From positions 1 through 23,851 of IMG/VR virus record IMGVR_UViG_3300046314_000075: a stretch of DNA of 23,851 nt; one strand, given 5' to 3'. Both the position numbers and the translations under genes were made by a program. The notes beneath the pieces were generated by a model, which worked only from the letters and a program-made list of their open reading frames with translations, made no database searches and was not told the DNA's origin. The DNA comes from a virus. Below are positions 11,828 to 23,517 of this stretch, one piece after another. Position 1 is the stretch's first letter. Each line of letters starts with the position of its first letter.

Positions 11828-14215
11828 ATGGGTAGCAAGGAACTAGCTAAGATTCGTGAGTCGGTAGTGGCGCAAGTCAAGGCCGGCACGATGACTGCTA
11901 AGGACGCCTACCCGGCCCTCCGGGGTGGATCGTACAAGCGCGGTGAGTTCGAGAACCTTGAGAACCAGGCGAAGGCCGCGGGCAAGGGTCAATGGGCGTC
12001 GTTGAGCACGTCGGCCAAGAACGCCGCGGCAGCAGCGCCCGTCATCAAACCCCCATCGAACACCCCCGCCAAGTCGGACCAGCGCGCCAAAGCATTGGGT
12101 GTTGACCCTCGCGAGTACGCAGCCGACCGTAACACGACCGTTGCGTCGCCTAAGAACGCGTTGTCCAAGTCGGACCAGCGCGCAGACGCGCTAGGTGTCG
12201 ATCGCCGCGAGTACGCGTCGAACCCGAACAAGTACGATAACGTTCAGAAGAACGCGCTGGCTACGTCGAAGTCCACCCCTGCACCTGCCACGGGTTACAG
12301 CCTGACGAGCACCAAGGGTCTGGACATGGGTGACGCTGTAGGAAAACAGACTGCTATGTTCAAGTCGTCAGTGAACGCTGCGTTGACCGAACTCGACAAA
12401 CTGACGGCTGCTGGTCGTGGTATTGGCCCAACAGCACAAGACCTTCGCAATATGATCGCCACGTATTCTGGTGAACTCGTGGGCAGTGGCGCACTTAGCT
12501 CCGCTGAGCGCAGCCAGTACATCGCTATGATGGACTGGGCGAACGACTCAACCACAGGAGCACGACCGACACTTGGCGACAAAGCAGGTGAATCGCTGCC
12601 CACGGTCAATTGGGTTGACGAGTTGTGGGACAAGACCCCCGCGGCTACTGCCGAGCAGATGGCAAACCGTGGCGACGGATCTGTCACTGTTGGCAGCCAA
12701 GGTAACTCAGTGTCTGACCCGAAGTTGCAGGCGGGCATCATCAAGGATGTTGACACTAACCTCGGTGATAGAATCGAGAAGTTGACCAAGACTGTCAGTA
12801 ACACAGATCCCACCATCGCAGGCTCTGGTCGTCAGCTTGGTGGCAAGCCCGACACCCCTTGGAGTGGGCCAGTCACTCCAACGGGTCAGGGTGCGTTGCC
12901 TGCCGCAACCATCGGTTCGGGTGCGGCAGGTACTAAGGAGGCCGTTGCTGCTGCTGTAGCTCGCGCAGTTGCCGAGAAGGCCGACCCTGCTACCATCGCG
13001 GCTATCGCCAAGCAAACCGCGATTGCCTACGGTGCGTCTACTGACGCTGCAACCAACATCGCAGCTGACGTGCTGATGAACAAGGGCGTTCCGATGGAGA
13101 CGGCGATCCGAATGGCGTCTAGCGCACCCTCGTCGGTCGCAGGTAGTACGGCGGGACCAGTCGCCGGATACGGTAGTACCGCACCCGGCGTTACGTCTAA
13201 CGGTGTCACGGGTGTCACGGGTCAAGCTGACGACGCAGGTGTTACCACGTCGCAAGGTACTACCCCCACACCACCCGTAGCGGCAGGCGGGTCTACTCTA
13301 GTCAACGGTGGAACGGGAACTGTGCAAACACCCGTCGCAACAGGTAGCGAGTCGTCGCCGCTGGTCAATGGTGGAACGGCTCCCCCACCTACCGGCGGCT
13401 TCGATCCCGTGACGGGCCTACCGCTCGTGCTTGGTGCCGCGGGTGCTGCTGCTTCCGTGCTGACCGGCAACGCGATGGCTGACGCGCAGATTCGTGCTGC
13501 TCAGATCCAAGCTGACTCGGCCGAGAAGGCCCGTGCGTTCCTAGAGTCGCAGTACAACCAGTCGCGCACCGACTTCACGCCCTGGCGCTCTGCCGGTGAA
13601 GAAGCCCTTGGGTACGACCGCGACGTGCAGGGTCAATTGGTCGAACGTGCGTCGGGTGGTCTTCGCACGTTCGAGGCTGACAACCCGCAGTTCAAGTCTG
13701 ACCCGTTCAAGTTCGACACGACGGGTGCGAACGCTGACCCGTCGTACAACTTCCGACTCAGCGAAGGACTCAAGGCACTCCAGTCATCGGCCGCTGCGAA
13801 GGGGATGCTTCGCTCGGGTAACACGATGCAAGCCATCACTGACTACGGTCAGGGTGCTGCGAGCCAAGAGTACAACAACGCTTTCAGTCGATACCAGACC
13901 AACAAGACCAACGACTTCAACATCTTCAACACACAGCGTGGGTCCAAACTCAACGCGCTCCAATCGCTCGCGGGTGTCGGTCAGTCGGCTGTCACGCAGA
14001 TGAGCAACGCTGGTCAGAACTACGCCACCAACGCTGGCAACGCGATGATGACGGGTGCCAACGCTACTGCGAACGGTATGACCGGCGCTGCTAACGACCG
14101 CGCGAGTGGTTGGATGGGTGGTATCCAGACCGGGATGAACGCGCTCGGTATGGCGATCAACTACGGCAATCAGCGTGATATGAGCAACGCTTTCGCCAAG
14201 TACTACGGGAGCTAG
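11828..14215 (+). CDS. DNA ejection (transfer) protein 1 with C-terminal conserved domain
   Basis: A 795-residue internal virion protein, probably expelled into the host with the genome. The N-terminal half is low-complexity (Ala/Ser/Thr/Lys-rich) and contains a 32-residue tandem repeat. The middle is Gly/Thr/Val/Pro-rich. A hydrophobic Ala-rich segment ('LGAAGAAASVLTGNAMA', about 534-550) precedes a conserved-looking C-terminal domain. That domain has an 'IQADSAEKARAFLESQYNQS' helix (about 560-579), 'DFTPWRSAGEEAL', then 'DPSYNFRLSEGLKALQSSAA' and 'LRSGNTMQAITDYGQG', a signature I associate with podophage DNA-transfer proteins. The start is ATG 11828 after GTAGGAGG (11814-11821). The first of three consecutive large ejection-type genes, matching the gp7/gp20/gp16 arrangement of P22 in role though not in recognisable sequence. 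Confidence 0.82.
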   Translation: MGSKELAKIRESVVAQVKAGTMTAKDAYPALRGGSYKRGEFENLENQAKAAGKGQWASLSTSAKNAAAAAPVIKPPSNTPAKSDQRAKALGVDPREYAADRNTTVASPKNALSKSDQRADALGVDRREYASNPNKYDNVQKNALATSKSTPAPATGYSLTSTKGLDMGDAVGKQTAMFKSSVNAALTELDKLTAAGRGIGPTAQDLRNMIATYSGELVGSGALSSAERSQYIAMMDWANDSTTGARPTLGDKAGESLPTVNWVDELWDKTPAATAEQMANRGDGSVTVGSQGNSVSDPKLQAGIIKDVDTNLGDRIEKLTKTVSNTDPTIAGSGRQLGGKPDTPWSGPVTPTGQGALPAATIGSGAAGTKEAVAAAVARAVAEKADPATIAAIAKQTAIAYGASTDAATNIAADVLMNKGVPMETAIRMASSAPSSVAGSTAGPVAGYGSTAPGVTSNGVTGVTGQADDAGVTTSQGTTPTPPVAAGGSTLVNGGTGTVQTPVATGSESSPLVNGGTAPPPTGGFDPVTGLPLVLGAAGAAASVLTGNAMADAQIRAAQIQADSAEKARAFLESQYNQSRTDFTPWRSAGEEALGYDRDVQGQLVERASGGLRTFEADNPQFKSDPFKFDTTGANADPSYNFRLSEGLKALQSSAAAKGMLRSGNTMQAITDYGQGAASQEYNNAFSRYQTNKTNDFNIFNTQRGSKLNALQSLAGVGQSAVTQMSNAGQNYATNAGNAMMTGANATANGMTGAANDRASGWMGGIQTGMNALGMAINYGNQRDMSNAFAKYYGS
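12071..12216 (+). repeat. Tandem repeat, 96-base period, in ejection protein 1
   Basis: AAGTCGGACCAGCGCG occurs at 12071-12086 and again at 12167-12182, and GCGAGTACGC at 12111-12120 and 12207-12216, giving a period of exactly 96 bases (32 codons). The encoded unit is K-S-D-Q-R-A-x-A-L-G-V-D-x-R-E-Y-A plus a spacer containing KNAL. The KNAL spacer recurs after the second copy, so there are two units and a partial third. Synonymous differences between copies suggest an older duplication. Confidence 0.85.
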
Positions 14216-14219
14216 TAAG

Positions 14220-15671
14220 ATGCCGCTTGATCCGACACTTGCGCGGGGCTTTGACCTCCCGAAGATCGAAAGCCCTATCGACCAGATGGGCGGTGCGTTG
14301 ACCAACGCGCTGATGATGAGCAAGATGAACACGTCACGGGACGAGAGTCTTCGTAACGCGATGCTCGACAAGGTGATGCGTGCTCGTATGCGTCCCGACG
14401 GCACCTACGACCAGGGCGGCGTGCTCTATGATATGGCGCAGGCAGGTCTTGGTCGTGGTGTGACGGGTCAGCAGAAGTCGTTCGCTGACCTTGCCGAAAC
14501 CCAGTCGAAGACCGCTGAGAACAACGCTCAGGCTCTTGGTGCGAAGGCTACTGCCAAGAAGGCTGCCGCTGAGACTCGCGAGAAGCTTGTCGGTATGATC
14601 CCTATGCTCCTCAAGGGTGCCAACACCATTGACGACGTGCGGACCAGCCTGTCTCGCTACGCGCAAGACCCGAGCTTCATTGACTCGATGGGTGGCATTG
14701 ACGCGACTAAGGTGTTCTTTGAGGGTATCGCTTCCGAGGCCAAGGGTGCTGAAAAGATGGGCACGTTCCCTCAGTGGCTCTACTCGTACCAGACCGACCC
14801 GAAGACGGCGACCGAGAAGAAGGTTGACAGTCGCGACCTCGGCGGAACGATGGTCACGTCGTCGTACAACGTGTCGGGTCCCAACGCAGGTAAGCTTCGA
14901 ACCGAGACGACTGAGAAGATCACCGAGAGCCCGAAGGCACCCAGGATGATTATCAACACCAAGTTCCCCGACCAGCCCGCAGTTGACTCGTTTGGCGATA
15001 CGTTCGGTAAGAACGAGGCGAACGATCTGTCTGCGAGCAAGGAGGCCGCCAACACCGCACCTACGGTGTTACGTAACGTGAGCAATATCCGCGGACAGTT
15101 GAAGAAGGCGTTTACGGGCAAGGCTGCTGGTGCCATCACTGACATCGTTGCGTGGGGCAAGGCCGCTGGTCTTAACGTGCCCAACGATCGCCTTGTTGCG
15201 AGTCAGATTGTTCGCAAGTACCTCAAGGACAACATTTTTAACCTGATCGCCAAGCACAAGATGGAGGGTGCGTCAGTCACCCCGTTTAGCAACGTAGACA
15301 TGAAGATCACAGAGGACGCATCGGCTAATCAGGAACTCGACCCTGTTGCGATTAACCGACTCATGGATGACCTTGAAGACGCAGCATACGAGTCTGCCAA
15401 CAAGTACAACCGCACCTACGACACCGTGATGAACGGTCCCCGCATCAGTCCCACGGTCAAAGCGTTGATGACGCAGAAGGTGGATATGCCGCCCCGTCAG
15501 TACCGTGACGACGACGGTGACGTGATCGGTGAGCAGTACATCCAGCGATTGCGTGCAAACCCCAACGCGGCGGCTGCGTTCGACAAGGAAGTGGGTGTCC
15601 CTGGTCTGGCGGCGAAGATCCTCAGGAACCAAGGAGGTACCTCCACGCAGGCCGCCCCTTTCAACCGGTAG
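14220..15671 (+). CDS. DNA ejection protein 2 (zero-frame product)
   Basis: A 483-residue, mostly helical, Ala/Lys/Asp-rich protein with no obvious membrane segment, lying between two other large ejection-type genes. It begins at ATG 14220, 4 bases after the previous stop. Recognisable only in general terms: 'DQMGGALTNALMMSKMN' near the start, a charged helix near 90-125 ('KATAKKAAAETREKLVG'), and a region near 340-400 with 'IFNLIAKHKMEGASVT'. It ends with TQAAPFNR. Two codons before the stop is a C CCT TTC slippery heptamer followed by a hairpin, so a fraction of ribosomes may continue in the -1 frame to make a 609-residue form (481 residues plus 128). Function is inferred from position and size. 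Confidence 0.8.
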   Translation: MPLDPTLARGFDLPKIESPIDQMGGALTNALMMSKMNTSRDESLRNAMLDKVMRARMRPDGTYDQGGVLYDMAQAGLGRGVTGQQKSFADLAETQSKTAENNAQALGAKATAKKAAAETREKLVGMIPMLLKGANTIDDVRTSLSRYAQDPSFIDSMGGIDATKVFFEGIASEAKGAEKMGTFPQWLYSYQTDPKTATEKKVDSRDLGGTMVTSSYNVSGPNAGKLRTETTEKITESPKAPRMIINTKFPDQPAVDSFGDTFGKNEANDLSASKEAANTAPTVLRNVSNIRGQLKKAFTGKAAGAITDIVAWGKAAGLNVPNDRLVASQIVRKYLKDNIFNLIAKHKMEGASVTPFSNVDMKITEDASANQELDPVAINRLMDDLEDAAYESANKYNRTYDTVMNGPRISPTVKALMTQKVDMPPRQYRDDDGDVIGEQYIQRLRANPNAAAAFDKEVGVPGLAAKILRNQGGTSTQAAPFNR

Positions 15672-15695
15672 CGCCGCAGGGTCAGCCTGTCGCGC
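15656..15695 (+). promoter_or_regulatory. Predicted -1 programmed ribosomal frameshift site
   Basis: Slippery heptamer C CCT TTC (15656-15662) fits X XXY YYZ exactly in the zero frame (CCC, TTT, C). After an 8-base spacer (15663-15670) comes a stem of GCGCCGCAGG (15671-15680) and CCTGTCGCGC (15686-15695) around the loop GTCAG, with nine of ten positions able to pair (one G-U, one C-C mismatch). The zero-frame stop TAG is 15669-15671, two sense codons after the heptamer, and the -1 frame is open for 128 codons beyond. All elements have the spacing of known -1 signals; no experimental support is available here. Confidence 0.72.
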
Positions 15696-16048
15696 CGAGG
15701 CGTCCAGCACCGCGTCGTCCGTCGCTCAAGACGGCACCTGCCGAACCCAAGATGGGGAACGCCTTTGCACGCCCCGTTGGTCCGCGAGTGCCCGACAAGG
15801 AAACCGTCCGCGGCGATGAGGTTGCGGCTGCTGTCCGTGACGAGTTCCCGTGGGTGAACGTGCAACGTATCGCGCCAGGTACGGGAGATGTTATCCTAGG
15901 ATACGGGAAAGCAATCAGCCAGCGTGAGCTTCGGAAGTTGCAAGACGCTGGTGACAAGTACGGATACTACTTGTTCGAGGAGAAGGGTCAACCTCCTCGG
16001 CTGATCCCATTGGAACGGTCGCAGGGCAAGAACAAGGGGCGTAAGTGA
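15662..16048 (+). CDS. -1 frame C-terminal extension of ejection protein 2
   Basis: After slippage at 15656-15662 the -1 frame reads a Pro/Arg/Gln linker of 30 residues ('QPVAPQGQPVAPRRPAPRRP' then SLKTAPAEPK) and then a 98-residue folded-looking part. That part includes 'ETVRGDEVAAAVRDEFPWVN', 'GTGDVILGYGKAISQRELRK' and a basic tail GKNKGRK. The linker is clearly protein-like. There is no ATG, GTG or TTG in this frame between the slip site and ATG 15752, and that ATG has no Shine-Dalgarno (upstream bases CCGAACCCAAG). Frameshift fusion therefore explains the frame better than a separate gene from 15752. The stop overlaps the next start as TGATG. The alternative is an independently translated 98-residue protein. 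Confidence 0.7.
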   Translation, partial: QPVAPQGQPVAPRRPAPRRPSLKTAPAEPKMGNAFARPVGPRVPDKETVRGDEVAAAVRDEFPWVNVQRIAPGTGDVILGYGKAISQRELRKLQDAGDKYGYYLFEEKGQPPRLIPLERSQGKNKGRK

Positions 16049-18117
16049 TGCCGGAAGACTTTAGCGACTACCGGAGGAACAAGGGTGCGAAGCCTGTCGC
16101 TGCGCCGTCTGACGACCCATCGTTCAGCGATTACAAGACGGGCAAGAAGGCAGCGAAGAAGGCTGCTGCGCCCGCACCCGCCAAGGAGAAGGACTACCGC
16201 TGGCGCGACATTCCGGCTGCTGCGTATGAGAACTACGGCCAGTCGATGTACGACTTTGGTGGGAACGTCTATGACGCTGCGATGCACCCGCTTGACACGG
16301 TCAAGAAGGCCGGAGGTATGGCCGCTGCCGTCCTTGACCTTCCGTACAACGGTCAGGCTGGCGTTGAAGCGTTGAAGGCTGTCGGTGAGACGTACAAGAG
16401 GAAGTACACCAGGGATGGTCGTCCAAGTCTCCAAGCGCTCAAGAACTCTATGGCGACGGAACCGATCTCAACCGCTGCTGACATCGTGACCGTCGCAGGT
16501 CTGCCTGCTGGTGGTGGTCTGACCGTCGCCGGTCGTGCTGGTCAAGCTGCTGGTGCCGTGGGTCGTGCTGCGGCTCGCGTTGCACCGTCCGTTGCAAGCT
16601 CCCGCGCGGTGGGTGCTGCGCGAGCTGTGGCGAACACGCCGGTTGGTCCGCTCGGCACGGTCGGTGAGATCGCGGGTGCGGGTGCCAAGGCGCTCGTTGC
16701 ACCTACGCTGTCGGCCAACGACGCCGCTGCTTTCGGGTTCCGCAAGGCGATCCCTGCGATCGCCACCCGTGCTCGTGCGATCGCTGACCCTGTTCACGCC
16801 AAGGTACACGAGATGGTCGGAGGCACCGCCCGCGCATCACAGATGCGTGCAGCCCTCGCCAAGCCCCCTGTGCTGCCGTTCGACGTGCCCACGCCTGGTG
16901 CTCAGATCACGTCCCAGATGGACGCACCGGCAATCGCTGGTTGGCAGAATGTGGGTGACGCTCTCACGGGTGCGAATGTGCCCCGTGCTGCCGCGCAGAC
17001 CCGCGCGATGCAGAACGCCGTCCAGTCGATTCGAGGTGGTACAGCTACTCCGATCGACCAGCGCATCACCGACTTCATCGGCAAGAAACAAACCGACGCT
17101 GCTCGCGACTACGGGATCTCGGACAACGAGTGGATGCAACTCACGCCCTCGTTGAGTCGTGATATCAATCTGCCGTACAACAACAACATCCTGGACCAAG
17201 CGACAAAGATTCAACTCCAGAACCTCAACACGCTGGGTCAACCTGCCGCTTACGACATTGGTACTCGCGGACTACTCGGGGAATACCAGCGACTCGGTAC
17301 ACCCGTGCCCACCCCCGGCGCACGTATGTTGAGCGGCAAAGACGTTGACTTGTTGAAGAAGGGTCTAAACCAGATCACCAACCCGGTGAACCCTCCCACC
17401 ACTCCGATCCCTATCGAAGTGCAGAAGGCGCTGCGGGATACCACGTCGCGAGTGGTCGGCGAAGCAAGGGCCGCAATCCCTTCGTATGGTACATCACTCG
17501 ACAACTTCGCTGCCAACAGCAACAACGTCGATGCCACCACCTACGCTCGCAGCCTCAGCAACTCGTTGCAGAACGCCCCTGCGGGTGAGGGTACGATCTT
17601 CTCCGATGTGGGCTCGTTCAGCAATATGCGTAACCGTGCGATGGACTCGCTGACCGGCCGCTCGGCAATCCGTCAGTCCACGGGACAGCCTCGCTACCCG
17701 CTGGGTGAGCGGTCGCTGCTTCGTCCTGACGAGAGTGCCCGCCTCGACGCCGTTCAGAACCTCATCGGTCGTGAAGCCAGCTTGGGTCAGCAGACCCGCG
17801 GCGTCACCCCTCCGAACTTCTCAAGTATGTTGTCGGACAACCTGGGTTTCCGGTCGGACACTCCGTTCCTCGGCAGCTTGGTCAAGGGTCAGAACGCGAT
17901 GCTTGAGCGGGAGATGGCTGAGGCGGTACGCACGGGGAAGGGGCTCGACGAAGTGATCGCGAAGTACGGCAAGGACCAGAAGGGCATTGACGACATCGCA
18001 GCGGTGTACCACGCGTTGACCAACAAGTACAACCCGCTCCACCCGCTGCGCGTGATGAACAACAACCCCGCCCTGTACAACGTCCTGGGTCAGCGCGACC
18101 AGCAGGAGCAACAGTAG
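16048..18117 (+). CDS. DNA ejection protein 3
   Basis: A 689-residue protein from ATG 16048, which overlaps the previous stop (TGATG); an adjacent in-frame GTG at 16045 is less likely. The N-terminal portion is charged and carries 'YRWRDIPAAAYENYGQSMYD' and 'YDAAMHPLDTVKKAGGMAAA', a pattern ('n..e...hP.dt') seen near the start of large phage internal virion proteins. Roughly residues 145-218 form a long Ala/Gly/Val-rich stretch that could insert into or cross a membrane. The rest is helical and polar with no enzymatic motif. Last of the three ejection-type genes before lysis. No transglycosylase motif was seen in any of the three. Confidence 0.78.
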   Translation: MPEDFSDYRRNKGAKPVAAPSDDPSFSDYKTGKKAAKKAAAPAPAKEKDYRWRDIPAAAYENYGQSMYDFGGNVYDAAMHPLDTVKKAGGMAAAVLDLPYNGQAGVEALKAVGETYKRKYTRDGRPSLQALKNSMATEPISTAADIVTVAGLPAGGGLTVAGRAGQAAGAVGRAAARVAPSVASSRAVGAARAVANTPVGPLGTVGEIAGAGAKALVAPTLSANDAAAFGFRKAIPAIATRARAIADPVHAKVHEMVGGTARASQMRAALAKPPVLPFDVPTPGAQITSQMDAPAIAGWQNVGDALTGANVPRAAAQTRAMQNAVQSIRGGTATPIDQRITDFIGKKQTDAARDYGISDNEWMQLTPSLSRDINLPYNNNILDQATKIQLQNLNTLGQPAAYDIGTRGLLGEYQRLGTPVPTPGARMLSGKDVDLLKKGLNQITNPVNPPTTPIPIEVQKALRDTTSRVVGEARAAIPSYGTSLDNFAANSNNVDATTYARSLSNSLQNAPAGEGTIFSDVGSFSNMRNRAMDSLTGRSAIRQSTGQPRYPLGERSLLRPDESARLDAVQNLIGREASLGQQTRGVTPPNFSSMLSDNLGFRSDTPFLGSLVKGQNAMLEREMAEAVRTGKGLDEVIAKYGKDQKGIDDIAAVYHALTNKYNPLHPLRVMNNNPALYNVLGQRDQQEQQ

Positions 18118-19392: not shown

Positions 19393-19824
19393 CTACTTCG
19401 CGGAACGCAAGCGTGAAGCTCGGCGACTCAGAGTTTCACGCCTGACACCGAGGCGGCGAGCCACAGCTTCCAGCGTTTCCCAGTTCTTACGGTCAGCAAG
19501 AGCTGCTGCGACTTGCTCATCGGTAACGTCGGGAGCGTACTTGGCGTGGTCGGGTGACACACACCATCGGTCGCCACAGGACGTTACCAGACGACGGGTC
19601 GGTAGTTCACCGTGACGGTATGCCCACGCTGCCCGGCGGGCGTGTACTCGCTCGCCCTGGTACTGAGCAGATGGCTGGCGACCACCCTTTGCACGGCAAC
19701 CCATCACCGCACCCGTCCACTTCCAACACCCACCGACTTGCTCGACCTGAGTCATCAAGTCGTCCTCGGTGTGGAGCAGGCTCCTGTTCGACAGAGGACG
19801 AGCCGCCCGATCACAACTTCTCAT
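19393..19824 (-). CDS. HNH-type endonuclease-like protein with C-terminal HTH
   Basis: A 143-residue protein whose ATG overlaps the stop of the zinc-ribbon gene (TGATG). The middle matches the phage HNH pattern: 'GGCWKWTGAVMG' (about 31-42), 'HARRAAWAYRHGELPTRRLV' (62-81), then 'TSCGDRWCVSPDHAKYA'. In most relatives the segment after the 'hG.ip' motif reads 'v.H.C....CvnPdHl'. Here the first His is replaced by Thr (VTSCG), while the CxxxxC and PDH parts remain, so catalytic activity is uncertain. A C-terminal segment 'WETLEAVARRLGVRRETLSR' looks like a helix-turn-helix. Probably a free-standing homing endonuclease or its DNA-binding derivative at the operon end. An earlier in-frame start (20058) is rejected because it would run through the helicase end and the zinc-ribbon gene. 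Confidence 0.75.
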   Translation of the reverse strand: MRSCDRAARPLSNRSLLHTEDDLMTQVEQVGGCWKWTGAVMGCRAKGGRQPSAQYQGERVHARRAAWAYRHGELPTRRLVTSCGDRWCVSPDHAKYAPDVTDEQVAAALADRKNWETLEAVARRLGVRRETLSRRASRLRSAK

Positions 19825-19964
19825 CACCACACCTTCTTCTTGGGTGCAAGTCGTTTCGCCAAACATTCCACGCACCATCGTCCGTTGCCGTGCGGGGTGA
19901 AGCTGGACGCCAGCGCCGAGACGATGCCGCAGCCTGAGCAGCCGTACCACGTTGTAGGTTTCAT
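19824..19964 (-). CDS. 46-residue zinc-ribbon protein
   Basis: A short gene linked at both ends: its ATG lies in the helicase stop (ATGA) and its TGA overlaps the next ATG (TGATG). The peptide begins MKPTTWYGCSGCGIVSALAS, continues through SFTPHGNGRWCVECLAKRLA and ends PKKKVW. Two CxxC pairs (C9/C12 and C31/C34) separated by 18 residues form a textbook zinc ribbon, and the C-terminal KKK is basic, so nucleic-acid binding is likely. Its position between helicase and HNH genes suggests a replication or recombination accessory role; that is inference. Confidence 0.8.
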   Translation of the reverse strand: MKPTTWYGCSGCGIVSALASSFTPHGNGRWCVECLAKRLAPKKKVW

Positions 19965-22900
19965 ACACCCTTCTCCAGTCGGTACTGCTTAACCGACCTG
20001 CGTAGCCCGTCCTGTGTCGTCGCCTTACTGTCGAGTGCGATAGACTGAATCTGGTCAACTGTCTTCGTCACCATAATGCGGTGACACATCACTGGCTTGC
20101 CCTGACCCTGCCTGAGAATACGCGCGTTCATCTGTGAGTACAGGTCGAGGCTCCAGTTCAGACCGAACCAGACGATGACGTTGCCATTCTCCTGCAACCC
20201 GTCGATCCCGTGGCCGGCGCTGGCCGGATGAGCAAGCATCAGTGGACAGTCGCCAGACTTCCACCGTCGCATCGCCTCATCTAGCGACTTCTGCGACTTG
20301 CACTCGGTCAGGTTGACGGGCTTCAAGTCCTTGAACCGCTTCATTATGCGGTCAGCGTCACTCTTGAACGAGTACGCGCACAGCACCGGGTTGCCCTGCG
20401 CCTCGTCGATAATGTCTTCTAGTGCGTCTAGCTTGAGGTCGTGGACCACCTGGTAGTCGCTGCTCTCGGTGTTGTGATACAAAGCGCCCGCCCCGTATTG
20501 GAGGCAATTATGAGCGATGAACACCTCACCGTTACGACCTCTTACGGTGAATCGGTGACGTGGGCCTGCGTTGATGATGTCGTAGACACGGGTTTGAACA
20601 GGTCCATCCCCGACCATCCCCGGTCCATCCGTTTGCGTATCGTGATACCTTGTAGGTTGAACACCCTCGCCGCCTCGGCAACCGTCATAGGACCGAACCA
20701 TGTTTGAACGATCACGTTGAATCGAGTGTTGTTGCCCTGTTCCTGTCTGGTTGCCCAGCGACAGTTTTCCTTGTGATAGTTCCCGTTCACGTCGATGCGA
20801 TCGAGCGTCAAGTCGTCCGAGTAACCGTGTGACATATCTGACCAGAACTTGTCGAACTCGTTCCACTCGGGACACACTGTAATCCCGCGCCCACCGTAGT
20901 TCTTCCAATCCTTGTCTTGAGGGTTGGCGCATCGAGAACGCATCGCCATCCAACTCACCCACGGACGAGTATGCGACATTCCGTGGGTCTTCTTCCACTT
21001 GCCGTGGGCACACCCGCAAGACTTGACTGCTCGCTGTCTGTGTGTTGACCGCAGACTTTGACCTTGCAGTACCAGTTCGTTCCCACAGTCGCACTTGACT
21101 CGCCACGTAGCGCGTGCGGAAGTGCTGTTCTTCCTCTGAACACTCCCCTCCCTCGACATCACTGTAAGGAGTCCGAACCGCTGCCCGGTCAAGTCCTTCG
21201 CCGGATTGCTCATTCAGAACCTCGTGCGCCTCACGCCACCCCTGGTTCGTCAAAACCTTGTGGTCAGGGGTCATACCGACACCCCAGCACTCTACCACGT
21301 TCTTATAACCGTTGCAAGCGATACCGGAAACGTTTACCCATTCTACGCCGTCCCAAACTTGGTCAGCAGACGTGACGATTTCGATTCGCTTCCATCCGTC
21401 GTATGTCAAAACCTCGGTGCCCTCAGCGAGACATTTATTCATCAGCGCGGCCTTGTTGAAGACCTCGACAGTACACTCGTCAAGCTGCAAGAACATCTCG
21501 CGTTCTAGCTTCTCGTAGTTGTCGCGCAGCTCGCCGGTCATCTCGATCGAGATGTCGTTGACGATCATATCCGGCAGCGGGTTGTAGTCCGCTGCTGACA
21601 TCTCCAGCGTGATGTCCGAGATGAGCGCCTTGATGTCCGTCTCGGCGTTCGCCATCGGCACCTCCTTGTATGGTCCTTCCTTGTGGTAGAACTTCGTCTT
21701 GAACGGCGTCTTGTGTCGCCCGAGCCGCTGACCCTTGTCGATGACGAGGTACTGGCCGTGGAGATCCTTGTAGCCGTTGGACGCAGGTGTACCCGTGAGT
21801 CCCGTCGTCCAGTCGAAACACTGCTCGATCTTCAAGAACGACTTGACCCGGTTGGTGGTGCTATTCTTCATCTTAGAACAGTTGTGGACTAGGACTCCTC
21901 CGACGTAGTAGGTTTCCGCCTCCTCGACATGGATATTCCAAACATCGACGCCACTTCCTTGTTCGTGATGTAGAACACTTTCCACCCACGTTCCTCCAGT
22001 AGAAGTCGCTTCTTCTCGTCCCTCATTTTCCCAAGGACGGTACTGTGCGACTGACCCTGAACTTCGATAGCTATCTTGTTCACAGGGTCCGCAAAGTCGA
22101 TCTTGTAGTGAGTCGGATAACCCTCCGACTTCTTGATCTCCCTGAAGATGTACTCTTGCTGGAACTGCGGCGGTAGCATCGTACGTAACAAGTTCTCTGC
22201 CCACGAGCCACCCGTCCCGTTCCCGCCGTTCAGGTGTGAGTGATCGAGCCTCTTGTGTGACTCGCTCATTTTTGAACGCATTTCCTCGGGCCAAGGAATC
22301 CCCTTGTTCCAAGTCCCGTACTGTTCGCGGTGTCTCTGTAGCGCCTTGATCCCACCCGAAGTGATCGCCTTCTTCACTTCTGGTTGTTGCATCCTCCAGG
22401 TGCTCGCGCACGCCTTGGAACAAGTGAACTGCTCGTCCCTCCGCTTCCAGAACACCGCCTGGCAAATCTGACAAGACCCTTCCCCGAATCTCCGAATGTT
22501 GTGGGGCTTCATTCAACACATCACCCTTCTTCAAGTTGCCCGCGGCAACCCAATCGTCACCCACACTAAAGGGGTGATTAGGGGTGCAACGCAGCACGCT
22601 ACCGTTACTCAACCGCACATCGACAAGCGATGTCGTGGTCTTCTGCATCGTGTTCAACACACGGCGAGGACCGATGTGGGTAGATACTACGTCGCCAATC
22701 TTCAACTTGTCAATAGCAATATGAGAATCTGGTGTCTGAACCAGGGTGCCTTTGACGAAGCACTCGTCCCATACCAGCCCGTTCGCAGGCACCGGGATAC
22801 CCGCTGACAAATAGTAAGTGTGGAGGAAGCTGGACAACCACTTCAAGTTCTCGTAGTTCACAAGGTACACGTCGGCAGGCTGCATCATCGCCCTGGAACG

Positions 22901-23227
22901 CGAGTCCTTGTTGCCCGTCACCAGCGAGAACTTGAGGTGCTTCGTGTGCTCCCACTTGAGAGCTTCCTGCCGCCAGACCATCTTGCAGACCCGGATGGGT
23001 GCGACGATGATGACGCCGCGCAGCACACCCAGCTTGCGCAGGTGGGAGATGGTGCTCAAGGTGATAACCGTCTTGCCCAGACCCATATCGAGCCACATCA
23101 TCGAGTTAGGCATCGATGTTTGGTGTATGATCGCCTTCTGCTGGTAGGGGAACAGGTCAGCAGCCGAGCGCAGGGCCTTGGTCGGCGGGGGCTTAGTGAC
23201 CGTTAGGAAGGAAGGTACGGGGAGCAT
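19961..23227 (-). CDS. SNF2/DEAD-type DNA helicase precursor with two inteins
   Basis: The precursor is 1088 residues; removal of two inteins leaves a 485-residue helicase of the SNF2-like type common in phage replication regions. Numbered from ATG 23227: Walker A DMGLGKT (47-53), VAPIRVCKMVWRQE (motif Ia region), motif II VWDE/CSK (split after E155), motif III TGLTGTPASNG, NK/CLQYGAGALY (split), and motif V LAHPASAGHGIDGL. Motif VI is QMNARILRQGQ. The start at 23227 overlaps the VRR-NUC stop (TGATG); an in-frame ATG at 23248 would add seven residues inside the upstream gene. Because intein 1 splits the catalytic DE motif, the ATPase should be inactive until splicing. The last bases overlap the zinc-ribbon start. 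Confidence 0.93.
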   Translation of the reverse strand: MLPVPSFLTVTKPPPTKALRSAADLFPYQQKAIIHQTSMPNSMMWLDMGLGKTVITLSTISHLRKLGVLRGVIIVAPIRVCKMVWRQEALKWEHTKHLKFSLVTGNKDSRSRAMMQPADVYLVNYENLKWLSSFLHTYYLSAGIPVPANGLVWDECFVKGTLVQTPDSHIAIDKLKIGDVVSTHIGPRRVLNTMQKTTTSLVDVRLSNGSVLRCTPNHPFSVGDDWVAAGNLKKGDVLNEAPQHSEIRGRVLSDLPGGVLEAEGRAVHLFQGVREHLEDATTRSEEGDHFGWDQGATETPRTVRDLEQGDSLARGNAFKNERVTQEARSLTPERRERDGWLVGRELVTYDATAAVPARVHLQGDQEVGGLSDSLQDRLCGPCEQDSYRSSGSVAQYRPWENEGREEATSTGGTWVESVLHHEQGSGVDVWNIHVEEAETYYVGGVLVHNCSKMKNSTTNRVKSFLKIEQCFDWTTGLTGTPASNGYKDLHGQYLVIDKGQRLGRHKTPFKTKFYHKEGPYKEVPMANAETDIKALISDITLEMSAADYNPLPDMIVNDISIEMTGELRDNYEKLEREMFLQLDECTVEVFNKAALMNKCLAEGTEVLTYDGWKRIEIVTSADQVWDGVEWVNVSGIACNGYKNVVECWGVGMTPDHKVLTNQGWREAHEVLNEQSGEGLDRAAVRTPYSDVEGGECSEEEQHFRTRYVASQVRLWERTGTARSKSAVNTQTASSQVLRVCPRQVEEDPRNVAYSSVGELDGDAFSMRQPSRQGLEELRWARDYSVSRVERVRQVLVRYVTRLLGRLDARSHRRERELSQGKLSLGNQTGTGQQHSIQRDRSNMVRSYDGCRGGEGVQPTRYHDTQTDGPGMVGDGPVQTRVYDIINAGPRHRFTVRGRNGEVFIAHNCLQYGAGALYHNTESSDYQVVHDLKLDALEDIIDEAQGNPVLCAYSFKSDADRIMKRFKDLKPVNLTECKSQKSLDEAMRRWKSGDCPLMLAHPASAGHGIDGLQENGNVIVWFGLNWSLDLYSQMNARILRQGQGKPVMCHRIMVTKTVDQIQSIALDSKATTQDGLRRSVKQYRLEKGV
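20507..21433 (-). mobile_element. Intein 2 in the helicase (NK/CLQ site)
   Basis: A 309-residue insertion, precursor residues 599-907. Splicing features: first residue Cys in CLAEGTEVLTYDGW (block A), block B 'GVGMTPDHKVLT' with TxxH, a block F-like 'RVYDIINAGPRHRFTV', and the end VFIAHN followed by extein Cys (block G). Extein flanks NK and CLQYGAGALY join to a normal helicase sequence. The in-frame middle (about residues 75-280 of the intein) has no LAGLIDADG or HNH motif and looks like shadow translation, because a complete HNH gene lies there in the +1 frame (20542-21213). Splicing domains are about 80 residues (N) and 25-30 residues (C), the size of a mini-intein. Confidence 0.93.
20542..21213 (-). 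CDS. HNH homing endonuclease nested out of frame in intein 2
   Basis: A 223-residue gene in the +1 frame relative to the helicase/intein frame, same strand, wholly inside intein 2. Domains: 'DLTGQRFGLLTV' start typical of a phage HNH family; zinc-ribbon cysteines CDCG (41-44) and SCGC (65-68); 'MRSRCANPQDKDWKNYGGRG' and 'ITVCPEWNEFDKFWSDM'; HNH core 'LTLDRIDVNGNYHKENCRWA' (135-154) with EQGNN after it; C-terminal HTH 'MTVAEAARVFNLQGITIRKR' (176-195). This order is diagnostic of free-standing HNH homing enzymes. The start ATG is preceded by ACGAGG with a 6-base gap. The last 18 residues are low-complexity and coincide with intein block F, suggesting the domain proper ends before them. Likely cuts intein-less helicase alleles. 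Confidence 0.9.
   Translation of the reverse strand: MSNPAKDLTGQRFGLLTVMSREGSVQRKNSTSARATWRVKCDCGNELVLQGQSLRSTHRQRAVKSCGCAHGKWKKTHGMSHTRPWVSWMAMRSRCANPQDKDWKNYGGRGITVCPEWNEFDKFWSDMSHGYSDDLTLDRIDVNGNYHKENCRWATRQEQGNNTRFNVIVQTWFGPMTVAEAARVFNLQGITIRKRMDRGWSGMDLFKPVSTTSSTQAHVTDSP
21881..22762 (-). mobile_element. Intein 1 in the helicase (WDE/CSK site, motif II)
   Basis: A 294-residue insertion, precursor residues 156-449, immediately after the Walker B Asp-Glu. Splicing features: first residue Cys in CFVKGTLVQTPDSHIAIDKL (block A), block B 'LRCTPNHPFSV' with TPNH, 'NLKKGDVLNE' closing the N domain, block F 'VDVWNIHVEEAETYYVGG', and the end VLVHN followed by extein Cys-Ser-Lys. Flanks rejoin to LVWDECSKMKN, a standard motif II. 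Residues between about 90 and 270 of the intein carry no endonuclease motif in this frame; instead an EDxHD-type endonuclease gene occupies the +1 frame (21889-22512). The last His-Asn and +1 Cys are intact, so splicing should be functional. Confidence 0.93.
21889..22512 (-). CDS. Vsr-like (EDxHD) homing endonuclease nested out of frame in intein 1
   Basis: A 207-residue gene in the +1 frame relative to the helicase frame, wholly inside intein 1. It starts with a zinc-finger-like segment (C14/C17 in SCQICQ and C31/C35 in TCSKAC), then a NUMOD3-like DNA-binding motif 'GTWNKGIPWPEEMRSKMSES' (66-85) and a Gly/Asn-rich 'LNGGNGTGGSWAENLLRTML'. A PD-(D/E)XK/Vsr-like core follows with E106, 'YKIDFADPVNKIAIEVQGQS' (136-155, D139, E150), H156, and D165 in 'RDEKKRLLLEERGWKVFYI'. 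The usual 'EVDGxxH' reads EVQGQSH here. The ATG (22512) has AGAAGGG 11 bases upstream. The stop TAG falls in the GVLV codons just before the final His-Asn, so its tail overlaps the C-terminal splicing block. Confidence 0.88.
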   Translation of the reverse strand: MKPHNIRRFGEGSCQICQAVFWKRRDEQFTCSKACASTWRMQQPEVKKAITSGGIKALQRHREQYGTWNKGIPWPEEMRSKMSESHKRLDHSHLNGGNGTGGSWAENLLRTMLPPQFQQEYIFREIKKSEGYPTHYKIDFADPVNKIAIEVQGQSHSTVLGKMRDEKKRLLLEERGWKVFYITNKEVASMFGISMSRRRKPTTSEES

Positions 23228-23517
23228 CAGATTCCTAGACCCGCACACATACTGTTGATGATGTCCTTACCCTGGTCGATGTTGTCCACGACGTAGACCT
23301 GCACATTCTGTTGACGCAGGCGAGTGTGCTCGCGCTCCTGCGCTGGGGTCGGCGACTTGCCCTCTGCCTTGAACTCTATGAAGAAGATATGACCCGACGG
23401 CAGCACCATCATACGGTCAGGTACAGCAGCTCGGTTGGGGCTGGTGAACTTGTACGCGAGGAAACCCTTGCTCTTGGCGTAGTCGCACACAGCGGCTTCT
23501 ATTTCACGTTCCAACAC
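23227..23517 (-). CDS. VRR-NUC domain nuclease
   Basis: A 96-residue single-domain PD-(D/E)XK nuclease. Pattern: 'VLEREIEAAVCDYAKSKGFL' (E4/E6 region and G18), 'NRAAVPDRMMVL' (D34 in VPDR), 'GHIFFIEFKAEGKSPTPAQE' (E48-x-K50, Q60), then 'VQVYVVDNIDQGKDI'. All catalytic positions are present. The start is taken as GTG 23517, where TAGTG overlaps the stop of the upstream gene; an in-frame upstream start would run into that gene. The stop overlaps the helicase start (TGATG). VRR-NUC proteins next to SNF2-type helicases are common in phage replication modules and act on branched or flap DNA. Confidence 0.9.
   Translation of the reverse strand: MLEREIEAAVCDYAKSKGFLAYKFTSPNRAAVPDRMMVLPSGHIFFIEFKAEGKSPTPAQEREHTRLRQQNVQVYVVDNIDQGKDIINSMCAGLGI

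Follow-up and report, generated by a model that had tools for sequence, protein, structure and literature searches.

Phages T7 and T3 extend their capsid protein by a -1 frameshift (PMC5009743). Their gene 10 (10A/10B) resembles the locus described here in that a podovirus virion protein would gain a C-terminal extension through a late -1 shift and exist in two forms, although the extended protein is a capsid protein there and an ejection protein here. The YYZ part of the T7 slip site is UUC, as in our phage. Its X_XX part is G_GU (PMC5009743). Whereas the T3 extension is Ig-like (PMC5009743), ours is predicted to adopt an unrelated alpha/beta fold, and an Ig-like virion extension of the T3 10B type was rejected on the strength of the model, which gave, at moderate confidence, the order alpha-beta-beta-alpha-beta-beta.

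An internal virion protein of the Alteromonas phage vB_AspP-H4/4 (gp39/gp40; MF278336) has been annotated as a -1 frameshift product (PMC5658483), so that both are podoviruses in which a -1 shift, annotated there, would yield an internal virion protein. vB_AspP-H4/4 is T7-like, and its zero frame encodes a short putative endolysin while the shifted product is the large internal protein; here, in contrast, the zero-frame product appears to be a complete ejection protein already, and the extension would add a new domain. The original prediction, which knew of no such frameshift in a podovirus ejection protein, has to be softened in view of this annotated case, the one found for internal virion proteins (PMC5658483), and of the T7/T3 capsid precedent (PMC5009743).

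C-terminal extensions of coat or tail proteins by ribosomal frameshift are also described for Lactobacillus phage A2 and the Listeria phages A118, A500, and PSA (PMC5009743), but these are neither podoviruses nor are their extended proteins ejection proteins, and some of the shifts are +1. The lambda G/GT pair shares with our locus a programmed -1 frameshift yielding a minor extended form; it is, however, a non-virion chaperone encoded beside the tape measure gene, while our pair lies between ejection genes. A tail assembly chaperone of the G/GT type was rejected for our P22-like podovirus because of this location, which is no tape-measure position. The closest counterpart by gene order is the position of P22 gp20 and T7 gp15, P22 gp20 having 471 aa (PMC8954989) against 483 aa here. 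The word "frameshift" is absent from a 2022 review of ejection proteins (PMC8954989). We propose, with a probability that we judge to be about 0.58 and on the basis of one genome, that programmed -1 ribosomal frameshifting extends the middle ejection protein of this phage.

The Middle Ejection Gene and Its Homologues

The window, i.e., the whole stretch of DNA analysed here, corresponds to a 23,851-base IMG/VR record from a P22-like phage with environmental DNA as its sole source. Pfam revealed a P22-type portal (PF16510) and coat protein (PF11651) in the window, and PHROG matches identified two further proteins, one gp10-like (phrog_578) and the other a gp7-like ejection protein (phrog_598, DNA ejection, E 3.3e-30). 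The gene of the latter (11828..14215, plus strand; 795 aa) is the upstream neighbour of the gene at 14220..15671 (plus strand), whose zero-frame product has 483 aa, and a gp16-position ejection protein of 689 aa from its ATG, with distant matches in loci L100 and L160, is encoded at 16048..18117 (plus strand). Lying between the gp7-like and gp16-like genes and downstream of gp10, the gene at 14220 occupies the position of P22 gp20. DSL-LC05, the nearest annotated phage by portal, has the identical gene order with a 470-aa protein in the middle slot, and the order gp7-like, middle, gp16-like was also found in 100 syntenic loci. About 245 loci were gathered when the portal, gp10-like, gp7-like, and middle genes served as seeds; the middle gene alone, the gp16-like gene, or a search in genome contigs gave no loci.

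The middle protein of the window has no match in Pfam or PHROGs, so the function of its gene rests on synteny and on homology to same-slot proteins. One of these, L171, matches residues 1-358 (E 2e-27), and L164, L165, and L167 match the C-terminal half (L164: E 4e-8). The gene at 14220 can be identified as the middle ejection gene of a podovirus related to P22, and synteny and same-slot homology agree with its earlier designation as an ejection gene. All kin are distant, the nearest being L171, whose contig end falls inside the middle gene before the point of the heptamer, and no DNA-level relatives of the region were found.

In the alignment, L164, L165, and L167 terminate at ...FDAKYGAGxADRALxGQ, where the aligned part of the window protein reaches residue 471 (RNQ). 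The corresponding C-terminal helical motif of the window protein, LRANPNAAAAFDKEVGVPGLAAKILRNQ (15531..15632, plus strand), is predicted to form helices at 438-473 with a pLDDT of about 71-80. As the best-matching homologues end at this motif, the 483-aa form would be complete and the -1 part an addition. Beyond residue 471, the window protein reads GGTSTQAAPF, followed either by NR and the stop or by the shift. The model of the 483-aa form, with a mean pLDDT of 54, was too uncertain for a fold search.

The distance from the middle gene to its 3' neighbour ranges from -56 to +20 nt in the 100 syntenic loci, some of which come from overlapping contigs, and none of the 100 has an intervening ORF or a -1 domain after the middle gene. 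Such a domain, not seen in the middle proteins of these loci, is predicted here. The stop of the -1 ORF and the start of the gp16-like gene overlap as TGATG, and the end of the -1 ORF restores in this way the tight junction between middle and gp16-like genes that is typical of the syntenic loci.

Across about 100 loci (L002, L088-L251), the middle ejection proteins terminate in a few recurrent peptides, apparently whatever the sequence before them, namely IDALLxKYK, ANDPLGLGIR, SNPLLR, TVSNW, VIDFGSLK, GGFKYLGKE, AEQAELxQLRxRFGK, and FDAxFGAGSAARVLKGK, while their gp16-position neighbours frequently end in ENQNALAR or RIDLTGMANK. The recurring C-terminal peptides look like exchangeable tags, perhaps for packaging or docking.

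Elsewhere in the window, an ORF of 1095 aa for an SNF2-type helicase (19961-23248, minus strand) contains two intein-like insertions, one matched by Pfam Hint/intein-splicing models and the second seen by eye. Inside each insertion, the same strand encodes an endonuclease-like ORF in another reading frame (21889-22512, minus, DUF559, E 1.6e-5; 20542-21213, minus, HNH, phrog_374, E 6e-59), giving a helicase gene with out-of-frame homing endonucleases in two inteins. A further HNH-endonuclease-like ORF (19393-20058, minus; phrog_1872, E 2e-13) adjoins the helicase gene.

The Slippery Site and Its Surroundings

The consensus of -1 slip sites is X_XXY_YYZ with Y = A/U and Z = A/U/C (PMC10885494). 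The heptamer C CCT TTC at 15656..15662 (plus strand) is a perfect match in phase with the ATG at 14220 and, read as C CCU UUC, fits the accepted type (Y=U, Z=C; PMC10885494). It is followed by AAC CGG TAG, the zero-frame stop (15669..15671, plus strand) lying 6 nt past the heptamer, so that both the heptamer and the two sense codons before the stop are as originally described. Across the 5,682 codons of this GC-rich contig, only 3 in-frame X_XXY_YYZ sequences are present (0.05% per codon), and a chance heptamer would therefore be expected in about 0.2% of cases in the last four codons of the gene and in 0.8% in the last fifteen.

A hairpin at 15671..15695 (plus strand; -14.0 kcal/mol) follows after an 8-nt spacer (15663-15670) and consists of 4+5 bp (9 bp) with a 1x1 mismatch. 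Its coordinates and spacer were correctly predicted, and its distance from the slip site is suitable. The z-score is -1.2, 25 of 200 shuffles are as stable, and it ranks in the top 2.7-7.5% of 40-80-nt windows. With a stability slightly above chance, the hairpin does not stand out for a sequence of its composition and counts as the weaker evidence.

A Shine-Dalgarno-like sequence, AAGGAGGT (15631..15638, plus strand), lies 17-18 nt 5' of the heptamer. Shine-Dalgarno stimulators of -1 shifting act at a spacing of 9-14 nt (PMC5009743); AAGGAGGT falls outside this range and was rejected as a stimulator and left uncounted. Shine-Dalgarno sequences close to gene ends may serve the restart of translation (PMC5009743). 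Just 5' of the slip site, GGAGGTACCTCC at 15633-15644 forms a perfect 12-nt palindrome, which includes the Shine-Dalgarno-like sequence.

The Shifted Frame and Its Predicted Product

No stop interrupts the -1 frame between 15533 and the TGA at 16046-16048, and the extension after the heptamer comprises 128 codons plus the stop (15662..16048, plus strand). Its first ATG, GTG, or TTG past the heptamer is the ATG at 15752, which lacks a Shine-Dalgarno sequence and, as the sole in-frame ATG, opens an ORF of 98 aa (15752..16048, plus strand). Translation predicts 483 aa for the zero-frame product and 609 aa for the shifted one, with AAPF-QPVAPQGQPVAPR as the junction peptide of the latter. Given the stop rate of the shadow frames, 128 stop-free codons have a p of about 0.004, and shadow runs of this length are also present elsewhere in the contig.

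Codon log-odds revealed that the frame preference moves from the zero to the -1 frame between about 15606 and 15741, with the zero frame favoured until about 15650 and a neutral linker after it, and the -1 ORF is coding by this measure, clearly so from about 15741. The +1 frame is non-coding, and a +1 shift is accordingly not supported. The best switch points for a fusion are 15663-15669, with a score of 80.5 versus 77.1 for a separate gene from ATG 15752; the fusion is only slightly ahead, so codon usage alone is not decisive. The codon log-odds of 15662-15751 total 0.75, and translation of this part is not favoured by codon usage alone.

The linker adds to this picture. The zero frame begins a Gly/Thr/Pro/Ala linker (GGTSTQAAPF) past the homologue ends, which the -1 frame carries on, and this continuity favours a fusion. 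In the -1 frame, the linker (15662..15697, plus strand) contains two copies of QPVAP, 21 nt apart (15662-15676 and 15683-15697), the first of which follows immediately 3' of the heptamer, next to the first two shifted codons, and runs across the zero-frame TAG. The copies, CAA CCG GTA GCG CCG and CAG CCT GTC GCG CCG, differ in three nucleotides, all at third codon positions and all synonymous. With synonymous differences alone and a location across the stop, the repeat suggests that the -1 fusion is translated. Support for the -1 fusion frame comes from synteny, the ends of the homologues, codon usage, and the QPVAP repeat. The original prediction mentions neither this repeat nor AAGGAGGT nor the TGATG overlap with the gp16-like gene.

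In a single-sequence AlphaFold2 model of the extension, which is of moderate confidence, the linker is loosely predicted and leads into an alpha-beta-beta-alpha-beta-beta domain at 15797..16009 (plus strand; extension residues 48-118) with a block pLDDT of about 74-85. A meaningless frame would be expected to yield such a folded model only rarely. The earlier claims of a -1 frame running 128 codons with no start before 15752 and no Shine-Dalgarno sequence there, of two forms of 483 and 609 residues, and of a Pro/Arg linker preceding a folded-looking part are all in accordance with our analysis. No homologues of the -1 domain were found in phage records, viral contigs, plasmids, genome contigs, Pfam, or PHROGs, sequence matches in the PDB were at chance level, and Foldseek gave no match at E <= 0.001, the top matches being either small, uncharacterised viral proteins or phosphatases with a partial overlap.

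Alternative Explanations

The alternative that survives best, though we consider it unlikely, is that one base was lost from CCCCTTT by a sequencing or assembly error and that the true gene is a single ORF of 609-610 codons with an in-frame C-terminal module. A lost base in this run, whose homopolymer context makes it a likely place for an indel, would give an identical picture on our single metagenomic contig; the fusion frame is a natural continuation of the gene, and relatives carry varied in-frame C-terminal modules. Against such an error stands the count of split structural genes, which was 0 in 569 kb of aligned coding sequence from related viral contigs partly selected for good matches. 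When single bases were removed from the window's genes in a simulation, an in-phase heptamer arose in 2.3% of the deletions; just 0.6% placed one no more than 9 nt from the new stop, a share of 1.4-1.9% when the deletion fell in runs of 3-4. The split-gene and deletion results raise the odds of frameshifting some tens of times, to be set against its low prior in this gene class.

Less probable still is that the 98-aa ORF from ATG 15752 is translated alone or by coupling, the heptamer being a coincidence. The ORF has its own ATG, coding-like codon usage, and a score (77.1) near that of the fusion; the whole of the folded domain is encoded within it, and a similar fold is predicted for small viral proteins of 77-87 aa. 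However, its ATG is without a Shine-Dalgarno sequence, the 80 nt that separate it from the upstream stop are a long way for re-initiation, an 80-nt gap would remain where neighbours abut in relatives, and the QPVAP repeat 5' of the ATG looks translated. A real, recent one-base deletion in the phage lineage, by which the extension was lost and its frame left to decay with no programmed shifting, would be tolerable because the 483-aa form is complete in comparison with its homologues, but it is highly improbable given 128 -1 codons that are still coding-like and show no further stops or decay.

Proposed Mechanism and Significance

Under programmed -1 frameshifting, most ribosomes would read 14220-15671 to the TAG and produce the complete 483-aa middle ejection protein. 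On C CCU UUC, a minority would slip back by one base with the tRNAs for Pro (CCU) and Phe (UUC), which would re-pair with CCC and UUU in a tandem slippage. The shifted ribosomes would add 128 codons, giving the 609-aa form with its Pro/Arg linker and small alpha-beta-beta-alpha-beta-beta domain. Both forms would then be packaged, and some copies of the ejection complex in the virion would carry the extra domain. Our inferences from the locus concern the slippage itself, its rate, the presence of both forms in the virion, and whatever role the domain may have. Of the originally predicted programmed -1 extension, the identity of the gene and the fusion frame have been substantiated, and ribosomal programming is the likeliest cause, with no relative of the -1 domain found in viral contigs, phage records, plasmids, or genome contigs, and with a hairpin z-score of -1.2. 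More tentatively, and with slightly less than even confidence, we suggest that the two forms occur in a set ratio and that the injected trans-envelope complex includes a few subunits with the extra domain, which would make the ejectosome asymmetric.

Gene callers would miss the extension or label it as a separate orphan gene. If real, the locus would show clearly how recoding can fix the proportion in which a DNA-ejection protein is made in two forms; a mechanism known from capsid and tail genes would reach the injected machinery, and there would be a testable reason for unequal ejectosome subunits.
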